Shown here: in pieces, positions 5,397 through 7,712 of the stretch
How positions within the stretch are numbered: the first letter of the stretch is position 1
Layout: every line of letters starts with the position of its first letter
DNA from: Pseudomonadota bacterium
GTDB taxonomy: Bacteria; Pseudomonadota; Alphaproteobacteria; Reyranellales; Reyranellaceae
Direction: 5' to 3'
DNA length: 8,931 nucleotides
Assembly: GCA_023436825.1 (NCBI GenBank)
Contig: JAEZHS010000542.1
Span: 1-8,931 of the forward strand
The notes under the pieces: model-generated
The model's database searches: none
What the model saw: only the letters and a program-made list of their open reading frames with translations
What the model was told of the DNA's origin: nothing
Position numbers and translations under genes: made by a program

Positions 5397-5654
5397 CTAA
5401 CCGAGGACCAGCGGAAGCCGCCGATACCGGCCGCGATGGTCGCCCAGCGGCAGGTCGTCGGGGGTACTGGGCTTGGGCAATGGCAATCCCTTGGCGACGA
5501 TCTTGTCGAGAAGCTCGCGGGCCTCGCGCGACGGGCGATAGATAATCTCCGCCTCGCTGACGCCGGAGGCCATGACTCCCGGCAAGTCCGGCACCCAGCC
5601 AACATACTGGCCATCCTGGTTGTGTCGGATCAGCGAGTAGTAAGAAGCATCCAT
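5397..5654 (-). CDS. HicB-family antitoxin-like protein, no HicA partner
   Basis: 85 residues from ATG 5654. The N-terminal half has the HicB-like partial RNase H fold signature: a first strand YYSLIRHNQDGQYVGW (5-20), then VPDLPG (21-26, the D-x-PG turn), then the helix following SEAEI (33-37) with SREARELLDK (42-51). The C-terminal tail is proline-rich (LPLPKPSTPDDLP) and shows no DNA-binding domain, as in the short HicB-like proteins. In HicAB systems such a protein neutralises the HicA mRNase, but no 60-80-residue HicA-like frame is seen on either side. It is convergent with the TctC-like gene (12 bases between stops) and divergent from the diiron gene. There is no clear Shine-Dalgarno before the ATG. 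The open frame continues upstream to 5804, but that part overlaps the diiron gene and does not resemble the family. Confidence 0.75.
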   Translation of the reverse strand: MDASYYSLIRHNQDGQYVGWVPDLPGVMASGVSEAEIIYRPSREARELLDKIVAKGLPLPKPSTPDDLPLGDHRGRYRRLPLVLG

Positions 5655-5687: not shown

Positions 5688-5701
5688 TTGATCCAGATCA
5701 A
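5688..5701. promoter_or_regulatory. FNR/FixK-type box, perfect TTGAT-N4-ATCAA
   Basis: TTGATCCAGATCAA matches the FNR/FixK/Anr consensus in both half-sites. Its centre is at 5694.5. If it acts as a class II activator site (centre at -41.5), transcription of the diiron gene would begin near 5736, giving an 18-base leader, with CATCCT (5723-5728) near the expected -10. It also lies 34-47 bases upstream of the hicB-like ATG on the other strand, so it could affect both genes. Confidence 0.75.
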
Positions 5702-5753
5702 ACGGAAAAATGAACGTCGCGTCATCCTTCTGCTCCCCAGGGACGGAGCAGCC

Positions 5754-6821
5754 ATGACCACGCAGACCCTCTATCAATTGCCGGTCGACATCACGCAGTG
5801 GCATTTCGACGGCCAGACGGAAGTCCTGTTCAACTGGGAATACGATGACGGGTCGGCCGATCTGCTGAAACTCTACGAAAGAGGCAAGCAGCAGCAGTGG
5901 AACGCCTCGACCCGGATCGACTGGTCGCAGAATCTGTTCGAGGACAATCCGATGGGTCTCTCCGACGAGACCATCCCGATCTACGGCTCACCGGTCTGGG
6001 CGAGGCTCACCGACAAGGAAAAGAACTGGCTGCGCTTCAACCTTCAGTGCCACACGATCTGTCAATTCATGCACGGCGAGCAGGGCGCATTGATCTCCAC
6101 CGCCAAGATCGTCAGCACCGTCCCCGACATGAACGCCAAGTTCTACGCCGCCACCCAGGTGATGGACGAAGCCCGCCACATCGAGGCTTACAAGCGGCTG
6201 ATTCACGAGAAGTTCAAGTCCGCCTATCCCATCACGCCATCGCTCAAGAAGCTGCTCGAGCAGACGCTGAGCGACCGGCGCTGGGACTTCACCTATCTCG
6301 GCATGCAGGTGCTGGTCGAAGGACTGGCGCTCGCCGCCTTCCAGCGCATCCGGGACAGCGCCAGGAACAACCTCGCAGCCTCGATCAATGCCTACGTGAT
6401 GCAGGATGAAGCGCGGCACGTCACCTTCGGCCGCCTGGCGCTGCGCGACTACTATCCGCAGCTTTCCGACGCCGAACGCGCCGAGCGCGAGGAATTCGCC
6501 GTCGAGGCGCTCTACTTCATGCGCGACCGCTTCAACCAGGCCGAGGTCTGGGAGCGCTCGGGCCTTCCGGTCAACGAGCTGGTCAAGTTCGCCTACGAGT
6601 CCGGCGCCATGCAGGCCTTCCGCACCCGCCTGTTCACGCGCATCGTGCCGATCCTCAAGGAGATCGGACTGTTCGGACCGAAGATGCAGAAGGCCCTGGG
6701 TGACATGGGCGTGATGGAATATGCAAAGATCGACGTCGAAAGGCTGATCGGCAACGACATGAAGGTCGCCGAGGACTTCGACGCCCGCCGCTTCGTCGAC
6801 GACGCCTTGGCTGCCGGCTGA
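5754..6821 (+). CDS. Ferritin-like diiron protein, AurF-type oxygenase candidate
   Basis: 355 residues, soluble, no signal peptide. It contains a complete four-helix diiron site: E109 (MHGEQ), D138-E139-A-R-H142, E189 (LVEG) and D218-E219-A-R-H222. Both halves fit E-X28-D-E-X-X-H exactly, the doubled motif described for the N-oxygenase AurF and also close to ribonucleotide reductase R2-like enzymes. The N-terminal ~90 residues (QWHFDGQ, NWEYDDGSADLLKLYERGKQ) form the lead-in seen in bacterial 'ferritin-like domain' proteins of unknown substrate. Expected chemistry is O2 activation at a carboxylate-bridged di-iron centre; the substrate is unknown. ATG 5754 is preferred because GGAG (5745-5748) lies 5 bases upstream; an earlier in-frame TTG at 5688 lies inside the FNR/FixK-type box. 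It ends 6 bases from the end of the convergent cytochrome gene. Confidence 0.88.
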   Translation: MTTQTLYQLPVDITQWHFDGQTEVLFNWEYDDGSADLLKLYERGKQQQWNASTRIDWSQNLFEDNPMGLSDETIPIYGSPVWARLTDKEKNWLRFNLQCHTICQFMHGEQGALISTAKIVSTVPDMNAKFYAATQVMDEARHIEAYKRLIHEKFKSAYPITPSLKKLLEQTLSDRRWDFTYLGMQVLVEGLALAAFQRIRDSARNNLAASINAYVMQDEARHVTFGRLALRDYYPQLSDAERAEREEFAVEALYFMRDRFNQAEVWERSGLPVNELVKFAYESGAMQAFRTRLFTRIVPILKEIGLFGPKMQKALGDMGVMEYAKIDVERLIGNDMKVAEDFDARRFVDDALAAG

Positions 6822-6827
6822 CGGCGT

Positions 6828-7172
6828 CTACTTGGCGGCCGGTGCTCCGGCCTGCTTCAGGCTGAGGATGTAGTCGATGATGCTTTCGCGCTGGTCGGCG
6901 TTCAGGCGGAACATCGGCATGCCGGCGTGCGGCGTGGTCAGGGCCACGGTGAGCGCGGTGCTCGTCATGCCGGGGGTCGTCGCCAGCGCCAGGAAGGTGG
7001 GTGCCCGCGTGTTCGGAGACTGCAGCTGCTGCGGCTGGACCGCGTGGCATTCCGAGCACACCTGCCGCGCCAGCGCCAGCCCGCCCGGCACGGTCCCGCC
7101 TTCCTCGGCGCGCAGTGGCTGGCCGGCCAACGCAGCGAACAGAACGACCACGGACGATGGCAGGACTTTCAT
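6828..7172 (-). CDS. Small periplasmic c-type cytochrome (class I-like)
   Basis: 114 residues. A Sec signal peptide (1-22, hydrophobic core VVVLFAALAG, cleavage after PLRA) is followed by one haem-binding motif CSECH (C39, C42, H43) and a downstream HAGMPMF (82-88) that supplies the axial methionine, probably M85. The C-terminal helix DQRESIIDYILSLK (93-106) is the usual last helix of class I cytochromes c. It should carry electrons in the periplasm. ATG 7172 has GGAGG (7178-7182) at 5-base spacing and starts the signal peptide exactly; the open frame extends to 7229 without function. Upstream are a 16-bp palindrome overlapping the ribosome binding site and a TTGA-N6-TCAA box, suggesting oxygen-responsive expression. 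It is convergent with the diiron gene. The redox partner is unknown. Confidence 0.9.
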   Translation of the reverse strand: MKVLPSSVVVLFAALAGQPLRAEEGGTVPGGLALARQVCSECHAVQPQQLQSPNTRAPTFLALATTPGMTSTALTVALTTPHAGMPMFRLNADQRESIIDYILSLKQAGAPAAK

Positions 7173-7180
7173 GCCGACCT

Positions 7181-7196
7181 CCGATGACGTCATCGG
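7181..7196. promoter_or_regulatory. Perfect 16-bp palindrome overlapping the cytochrome ribosome binding site
   Basis: CCGATGACGTCATCGG is identical to its reverse complement. Its end at 7181-7182 overlaps two bases of the GGAGG Shine-Dalgarno site of the cytochrome gene. It could be an operator for a dimeric regulator. In RNA it could form a 6-bp hairpin with an ACGU loop that partly hides the ribosome binding site. No known regulator is recognised. Confidence 0.6.
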
Positions 7197-7231
7197 GCGC
7201 GTCGATCCCGCGCCTGCGACGGTTGCCATGT

Positions 7232-7237
7232 CCTATA
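7232..7237 (-). promoter_or_regulatory. Candidate -10 element for the cytochrome gene
   Basis: On the minus strand this reads TATAGG, matching the first four positions of TATAAT. Its centre is 32 bases from the centre of the TTGA-N6-TCAA box, the spacing expected for a class II FNR/FixK promoter. Transcription would start near 7225, leaving a leader of about 53 bases that includes the 16-bp palindrome. Confidence 0.4.
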
Positions 7238-7259
7238 GCCGCTGGGGTCGTCCGCGATG

Positions 7260-7273
7260 TTGACGTGGATCAA
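7260..7273. promoter_or_regulatory. FNR/FixK-type box TTGA-N6-TCAA upstream of the cytochrome gene
   Basis: TTGACGTGGATCAA has both conserved TTGA and TCAA half-sites; compared with TTGAT-N4-ATCAA only one inner T is C. Its centre is about 94 bases before the cytochrome ATG and about 32 bases before a TATAGG hexamer on the same strand. It lies just beyond the 3' end of the pstB remnant. Confidence 0.65.
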
Positions 7274-7297: not shown

Positions 7298-7712
7298 TCA
7301 ACCGAAGCAGCCCCGTGACGAATTTCTGGGTGCGCGGATCGTTCGGTAGGGTGAACACCTCCTAGGCAACGCCGAACTCCACCAGCTCGCACACAGCGCG
7401 GCGCCGAAGGCGACGTTGTCCTAGAACGACATCCGAAACGGCGCCGGCGATGCGCAGCCGCAGTCGTTCGACGTCGTCGCCCATCGTCAGGATGTTCTCG
7501 CCGTCGAGCAGCACCTCGCCGTCGACTCGCTGACCGTCATGCAGGTCGTACATGCGGTTGAACACGCGCAGCAGCGTGGACTTGCCGCCGCCTGACGGCC
7601 CGATGAAGGCCGCCACGCGGTGCTCGTGGATCGGCACGGACACGTCCTTCAGTGCCCGGTTTCCGTCCTCATAGGAGAAGTTCAGCTTGTGGACGCTGAT
7701 CTTCGCGCGCAA
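7298..7712 (-). pseudogene. pstB: Decayed pstB (phosphate ABC transporter ATP-binding protein), internally deleted
   Basis: Reading on the minus strand from about 7709: KISVHKLNF, then AAFIGPSGGGKSTLLRVFNRMYDL (Walker A; the usual Cys of GPSGCGKST is Gly), then GEVLLDGENIL and DVERLRLRI. After that the usual GMVFQKPT is missing, consistent with a deletion of about 17 bases that shifts frame. The shifted frame reads PFRMSF, a TAG where Tyr is expected (7421-7423), then DNVAFG. The signature motif, Walker B and most of the C-terminal half are absent. The frame then reads ELVEFGVA, a TAG (7362-7364), EVFTLPNDPRTQKFVTG, and an apparent one-base insertion before a C-x-F-G-stop ending at 7298. Several independent lesions show long decay. 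No start codon is clear; TTG 7712 is possible. No pstS, pstC, pstA or phoU is nearby. Confidence 0.85.

Follow-up and report, generated by a model that had tools for sequence, protein, structure and literature searches.

A relocated diiron oxygenase paralogue behind a conserved FNR/FixK-type site, a probable low-oxygen isozyme in relatives of Reyranella

Introduction

Promoters controlled by FNR- and FixK-type proteins have been described in several Alphaproteobacteria. Under FixK2 of B. diazoefficiens, the transcript of nosR starts at +40.5 from the box, and the napEDABC promoter of the same organism carries a box that is the same 14-mer as the one found here in front of a diiron gene (PMC5582078). 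In Dinoroseobacter, FnrL controls usp and heme genes (PMC5398030). Low-oxygen isozymes have been described in cyanobacteria, where ChlAII, HO2 and DesF are induced via ChlR (PMC4500134). Among diiron enzymes, AurF, CmlI and DnfA have a third His ligand, in a 3-His/4-carboxylate diiron site (PMC9478400). We describe here a locus where a diiron oxygenase-like gene and a cytochrome c gene each lie behind an FNR/FixK-type box, and where the diiron protein is probably a low-oxygen isozyme, placed beside a cytochrome that would be under FNR/FixK control independently.

Results

The window, that is, the whole stretch of 8,931 bases that was analyzed, contains the following features.

5397..5654, minus strand: UPF0150/HicB-like gene, divergent (Pfam UPF0150 at 17.3 bits, under the cut-off of 27.3)
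5688..5701: predicted FNR/FixK box of the diiron gene, TTGATCCAGATCAA, centre 5694.5, about -40.5
5710..5725, plus strand: family-wide promoter element ATGAACGTCGCGTCAT (consensus ATGAACGGAGCGTCAT), a candidate operator that overlaps the predicted -10
5723..5728, plus strand: predicted -10 of the diiron gene, CATCCT, at 21 nt from the box; the four relatives have CATCAT
5754..6821, plus strand: diiron (AurF-fold, 2-His/4-Glu) oxygenase-like protein, 355 aa, Pfam AurF
6828..7172, minus strand: small c-type cytochrome, 114 aa, one CxxCH, Pfam Cytochrom_C
7232..7237, minus strand: predicted -10 of the cytochrome gene, TATAGG, 22 nt behind the box
7260..7273: predicted FNR/FixK box of the cytochrome gene, TTGATCCACGTCAA when read towards the gene, centre 7266.5, -41.5

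The earlier note on this DNA had placed FNR/FixK boxes at 5688-5701 (TTGATCCAGATCAA) and 7260-7273 (TTGACGTGGATCAA), and both 14-mers are indeed there, as the sole perfect TTGA-N6-TCAA sites of the window. Its description of the two genes as convergent, with 6 bases between the stops, agrees with the coordinates of the reading frames (5754-6821 on the plus strand, 7172 to 6828 on the minus strand). With up to one mismatch allowed the window has five matches, three of them with one mismatch, against a mean of 0.97 in shuffled sequence. For perfect sites the mean was 0.026 per shuffled window; one site was present in 26 of 1000 dinucleotide shuffles and two sites in none. A short, apparently truncated ORF at 7362-7712 on the minus strand looks, by eye, like a piece of a PstB-like ABC transporter ATPase.

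The note had also claimed class II-like spacing for both boxes and a TATAGG hexamer behind the cytochrome box, and the predicted positions are consistent with both. TATAGG, 22 nt downstream of its box, puts the predicted +1 near 7225 and the box centre at -41.5. The diiron box, with CATCCT 21 nt downstream of it, would lie at -40.5 from a predicted +1 near 5735. CATCCT is a weak match to TATAAT, and the diiron mRNA leader is predicted to be short, with a GGGACGGAG stretch ahead of the ATG at 5754. Both predicted -10s fit a box-to-start distance of about 41 bp, with the box 21-23 nt before the -10. The same gap was observed at other boxes. Among 32 box-gene pairs, taken from two sets of loci, TA hexamers are most frequent at gaps of 21-22 (8 pairs), with 0-3 at the other single gaps from 12 to 33, and hexamer matches to T1, A2 and T6 number 30 and 38 at the peak gaps versus 11-26 elsewhere. 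TA falls exactly at gap 22 in six of the nine box-bearing cytochrome genes (the window's included), and a box-bearing usp gene (L201) has the string GCGTCATCCTT at the spacing of the diiron -10.

Genome contigs carrying the diiron gene were scanned at 75 loci, which came from the best 80 of 385 relatives, and a perfect box was present within 250 bp upstream of the gene at five of them, at -66/-65 in L001, L002 and L003, at -117 in L005 and at -100 in L007. None of 818 control genes had a perfect box within 250 bp upstream; these were called with a simple gene caller at 69 loci (L006 and L008-L075), with at least 250 bp upstream, and gene content overlaps between the loci. The diiron box is identical at 14 of 14 bases in R. 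soli (L001), G002 (L171), G003 (L003) and URHD0017 (L154), and 19 bases around it are invariant in all five sequences of the window clade. A perfect box also lies within 350 bp upstream of nine of the ten cytochrome genes of this type (the window and nine loci, 58-79% identity), the sole boxless one being L113 of G004. Conservation upstream of orthologues, the check that the earlier note had proposed, was thus found for both genes: the diiron box is present throughout the window clade (5 of 5) and in L005 and L007, and the cytochrome box in 9 of 10. The diiron box is not present in L004, an extra diiron copy (91% identical) whose genome, G004, has FixK/FNR-like genes; neither the diiron nor the cytochrome gene is boxed in that genome. 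The metagenomic protein P0003, seen as protein only, has LIQIK added at its N terminus, which is what translation through such a box would yield.

Both boxes were found at equal spacing in three relatives and in URHD0017, which lost most of the diiron gene. Inspection by eye of this last locus (L154) shows the diiron promoter block and box kept, most of the gene gone and a short stretch resembling its 3' part left ahead of the cytochrome gene. The gene-less conserved FNR/FixK promoter that results (L154:5633-5760) points into the cytochrome gene from behind and may make antisense RNA.

Across six Reyranella-group genomes (43.4 Mb), TTGAT-N4-ATCAA was found at 61 sites (5, 13, 10, 11, 13 and 9) versus 3 for the reversed control pattern. 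R. soli has five sites in 9.8 Mb, two of which flank this gene pair, where 0.003 close pairs would be expected. The neighborhood of 40 of these 61 sites was inspected (all of G001, G003, G006 and G008, 2 of 13 in G002 and 1 of 11 in G005). Genes behind these boxes encode 5-aminolevulinate synthase (hemA), BchE and a NarK-family transporter, all over NCBIfam cut-offs, as well as OmpW-like, small heat-shock and Usp-like proteins below the cut-offs and CBS-like proteins named by eye. No gene start was found within 300 bp of the box at 4 of 20 loci in one set or within 400 bp at L164 (one of nine), and at least two sites, those at L168 and L169, fall within called genes. The bchE gene behind its box (L211:2364-4026) is in the Reyranella-group MAG G006 and hints at bacteriochlorophyll synthesis. 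In G003, two copies of a protein of ~60 aa with CPVTG/CLACG motifs (L166:3343-3537 and L167:3507-3689) lie about 310-320 bp behind boxes. It is well supported, by sequence comparison, that both palindromes of the window are real FNR/FixK-type sites; their conservation and spacing, together with the kinds of gene that lie behind such boxes at other places in the genomes, give good support for FNR/FixK control of both genes.

Candidate activators were found in the same group. Seven of eight related genomes encode FixK-like proteins, of which the best are 52-100% identical to the query from R. soli. FnrL/FnrN-like proteins that have a CxxC-x7-C (4-Cys) motif are encoded in G001, G002, G008 and G021 (loci L233, L236, L237 and L238). 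NCBIfam scores were 114.6 bits for FnrL and 221 bits for FixK, both under the equivalog cut-off of 300. A recognition helix of ETxSR type, which reads TTGAT, is present in both kinds of protein. It is unlikely that another CRP-family protein sits at these sites, for example an NO-responsive one of the Dnr/NnrR type, or that the bound protein represses. Such a reading could draw on the 12-26 matches to the CRP-type HTH model in each of seven genomes, on the resemblance of Dnr-type sites to TTGAT-N4-ATCAA (PMC5398030) and on the G003 assembly, a MAG with the pair, both boxes and 10 boxes overall, where no FnrL- or FixK-like match was found at E <= 1e-20. As G003 is a MAG, its assembly may lack the activator gene; alternatively, a different member of the CRP family may be at work in it. 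However, the class II placement suits activation, the presence of hemA, bchE and usp in the regulon suits low oxygen, and the FixK-like genes described above argue in the same direction.

The box at 5688 also lies 33 bp from the start of the divergent HicB-like gene, and it may be common to this gene and the diiron gene. A neighbor similar to the HicB-like gene was called in L171, L173 and L154. A second HicB-like gene, at L162:2832-3089 on the minus strand, starts about 32-44 bp from the same palindrome, depending on the start chosen; as two separate loci pair a HicB-like gene with this FNR/FixK palindrome, such genes may belong to the regulon. These two distances would also fit a model where the box belongs to the HicB-like gene and the diiron gene merely adjoins it, with a promoter of its own. 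We consider this improbable, as the boxed diiron copies of L005 and L007 have no HicB-like neighbor called (L160, L161), the spacing and the -10 suit the diiron side, and no good -10 was seen by eye on the HicB side.

The diiron protein matches Pfam AurF with 68.4 bits (cut-off 29.6). "AurF-like," as it had been called, therefore holds at the Pfam level but not for the set of metal ligands. E109, E139, H142, E189, E219 and H222, the ligand candidates, are among 24 columns that are invariant over 37 aligned sequences, and the position of the third His of an AurF-type site, four residues before the last Glu, would be V215, as judged by spacing with AurF outside the alignment. An AurF N-oxygenase or a DnfA-like hydroxylamine oxidase was rejected on the absence, by spacing, of this third His. 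NCBIfam returned only R2lox models, far below cut-off, and a search of solved structures by sequence gave weak ADO matches. AlphaFold models the protein with moderate confidence (pLDDT 74, but under 50 for residues 1-33), and the Foldseek matches of this model in the PDB are to ADO, CmlI and AurF with TMq of 0.42-0.50, which would indicate a ferritin-like diiron fold only. No signal peptide was seen by sequence alone (no predictor used), and the protein is probably cytosolic. The family is large: all 7999 scored candidates, those sharing most words, passed E 0.001.

Each of eight genomes has 3-5 matches to the diiron gene. Copies of ~82% and ~70% identity are present in G001-G005, G007 and G008, and G001-G005 have an extra copy of 89-94% besides. 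G006 carries copies of 87% and 82% together with a fragment; the remaining matches are more distant (~30%) relatives. dN/dS is 0.09-0.11 between the window and L001-L003, and 0.06-0.14 over all pairs among these four, which points to purifying selection on the extra copy. A paralogue under purifying selection is thus kept beside another copy in relatives, the pattern of the isozyme class. In a comparison of 67 of 73 rows, the others having been dropped for stops or low ungapped identity, eight positions split most of the seven extra copies (6-7 of 7) from at least 90% of the 51 core copies; residue 143, beside the ligand H142, is among them.

Opposite the ~82% (core) copies lies a gene for a ferredoxin-type reductase that has FAD, NAD and 2Fe-2S domains and is closest to PaaE (211 bits, under the model cut-off of 420.8). 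No box was present at the 56 loci with a divergent PaaE-like reductase gene, at the six with a reductase elsewhere or at the two with too little upstream sequence, and boxes were present at five of the 11 where no reductase was found. The six boxless loci of this last class are L004, L062, L066 and three ~70% paralogues. By comparison of these contexts, the diiron gene of the window is a relocated paralogue of the reductase-linked gene.

The shared promoter element was the best match in the 200 bp upstream at 73 of 75 loci, the other two having too little upstream sequence. Over the 64 rows counted, 12 of its 16 columns are conserved in 58-64 rows and four in 43-54; the element is poor in L066 (10/16) and L073 (9/16). 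A search with TGAACGNNGCGTCA in six genomes gave 11 sites, seven of which are diiron promoters, with four elsewhere. The right end of the element coincides with the predicted -10, and by eye the box occupies the -35 position in the window clade, whereas TTGCC is at this position in three or four of the four ~70% copies inspected. CTAGCA-N5-TGCTAG or variants of it were seen by eye further upstream of several ~82% copies (e.g. L010 and L012), between the diiron and reductase genes.

The distance from box to shared element, start to start, is 22 bp in the window clade, 56 bp in L005 and 50 bp in L007, that is, 34 and 28 bp further away in the latter two, so that class II action there would need another -10. 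Three different distances could reflect separate captures or the rearrangement of one. The tree, built by a quick method from the window, 46 of the 75 loci (chosen by us) and three paralogues, needs two changes of box state and is compatible both with a shared origin of L005 and L007 with the window clade and with separate ones. On the three distances we base the tentative suggestion, for which the odds are somewhat against, that relocated diiron duplicates were captured by FNR/FixK more than once, giving dedicated low-oxygen isozymes in an alphaproteobacterial family.

The cytochrome matches Pfam Cytochrom_C with 24.7 bits (cut-off 21.3) and Cytochrome_CBB3 with 24.7 bits, under the cut-off of 27; solved structures searched by sequence matched at E 0.08-0.26. 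Its homologues have the same length and start at the Met of 7172. This is the conserved start, and a 133-aa ORF from 7229 would begin upstream of the predicted transcript start. A signal peptide was recognized by sequence alone (no predictor used), and the protein is probably exported.

The earlier note had taken the gene pair as an undescribed two-gene module under shared low-oxygen control. FNR/FixK sites at both genes are upheld by conservation, spacing and regulon company, but the joint module is not. A diiron enzyme and a cytochrome acting in one pathway, and co-regulated for that reason, would agree with the convergent adjacency and two boxes seen in the window and in L001, L002 and L003, where the cytochrome beside the diiron gene has its own box, and as a remnant in URHD0017. 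However, each gene occurs boxed without the other. Box-bearing cytochromes without an intact adjoining diiron gene were found at five loci (G014 twice, G005, G006 and G021), so that the two genes are neighbors in some relatives and not in others, and no such cytochrome was present in the 13 kb fetched around the boxed diiron copies in G005 and G006. The boxed diiron copy of G006 adjoins a rhodanese-like gene, and such a gene lies beyond the cytochrome in L173, L171 and L154 (by Pfam for L173). In URHD0017, in addition, the cytochrome gene and both boxes have survived the loss of most of the diiron gene. The compartments are probably different as well: with a signal peptide on the cytochrome and none on the diiron protein, direct electron transfer between them is unlikely. 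We therefore rejected the two-gene module on synteny, and we give a common pathway little chance. The cytochrome, boxed with or without a diiron gene beside it, seems to belong to this regulon in its own right.

Discussion

The model that we favor is that of a low-oxygen isozyme beside an independently controlled cytochrome gene. At low oxygen an FNR/FixK-type activator would bind at about -41 of both genes and recruit RNA polymerase as at class II promoters. The two promoters are convergent, and each would bring about the induction of its own gene, diiron or cytochrome, separately. The diiron duplicate would have left its ancestral place beside the PaaE-like reductase gene and come under FNR/FixK control. 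It would then most likely act at low oxygen as the isozyme of a diiron oxygenase or desaturase that depends on O2, with the reductase of the core locus to reduce it, and the cytochrome would serve low-oxygen electron transport, a neighbor by regulon and not a partner. The boxes, their spacing and conservation, the paralogy and the regulon company were read from the sequence, and from these we infer induction, the identity of the activator, the isozyme role and the redox partner. Cells of soil bacteria related to Reyranella would thus probably turn on both genes when oxygen is short.

If true, this model offers a testable case of keeping an O2-dependent reaction going as oxygen falls, with a duplicate that has moved away from the reductase-linked locus and has an FNR/FixK site in front of it. 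The regulon, the reductase partner and the set of paralogues also give a handle on a large uncharacterized diiron family. A literature search found no work joining Reyranella with AurF; for Reyranella with FixK it gave one paper, which by its title concerns beetle frass.

The locus shares features with several known systems. Like the FNR, FnrL and FixK2 regulons of Alphaproteobacteria, it has the TTGA-N6-TCAA palindrome at a spacing of about 41 bp, and the targets overlap (heme, usp and bacteriochlorophyll genes; PMC5398030). It differs in its diiron oxygenase target, none having come up in the accounts of those regulons consulted here; the word "diiron" does not occur in PMC5398030. With the diiron N-oxygenases AurF, CmlI and DnfA it shares the Pfam AurF match, with CmlI and AurF among the Foldseek matches, and the partner protein of DnfA likewise combines FAD/NAD and 2Fe-2S domains (PMC9478400), but V215 stands where their third His would be. 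The core diiron copies, divergent to a PaaE-like reductase gene, recall the phenylacetyl-CoA epoxidase with its PaaE-type reductase; here, however, the oxygenase is matched by the AurF and not the PaaA model, and no other paa genes were noticed by eye in L063. The closest analogy to the proposed role would be ChlAII, HO2 and DesF, where one copy of an O2-dependent enzyme serves aerobic cells and a further one is induced at low oxygen, as we propose here. The cyanobacterial activator ChlR is of MarR type, in contrast to the CRP/FNR type here, and the enzyme family is another; the cyanobacterial isozymes are about 48% similar, whereas the diiron copies are about 83% identical. The logic of low-oxygen isozymes and the switch itself are thus already known, and it is the pairing of this enzyme family with this regulator that looks new.
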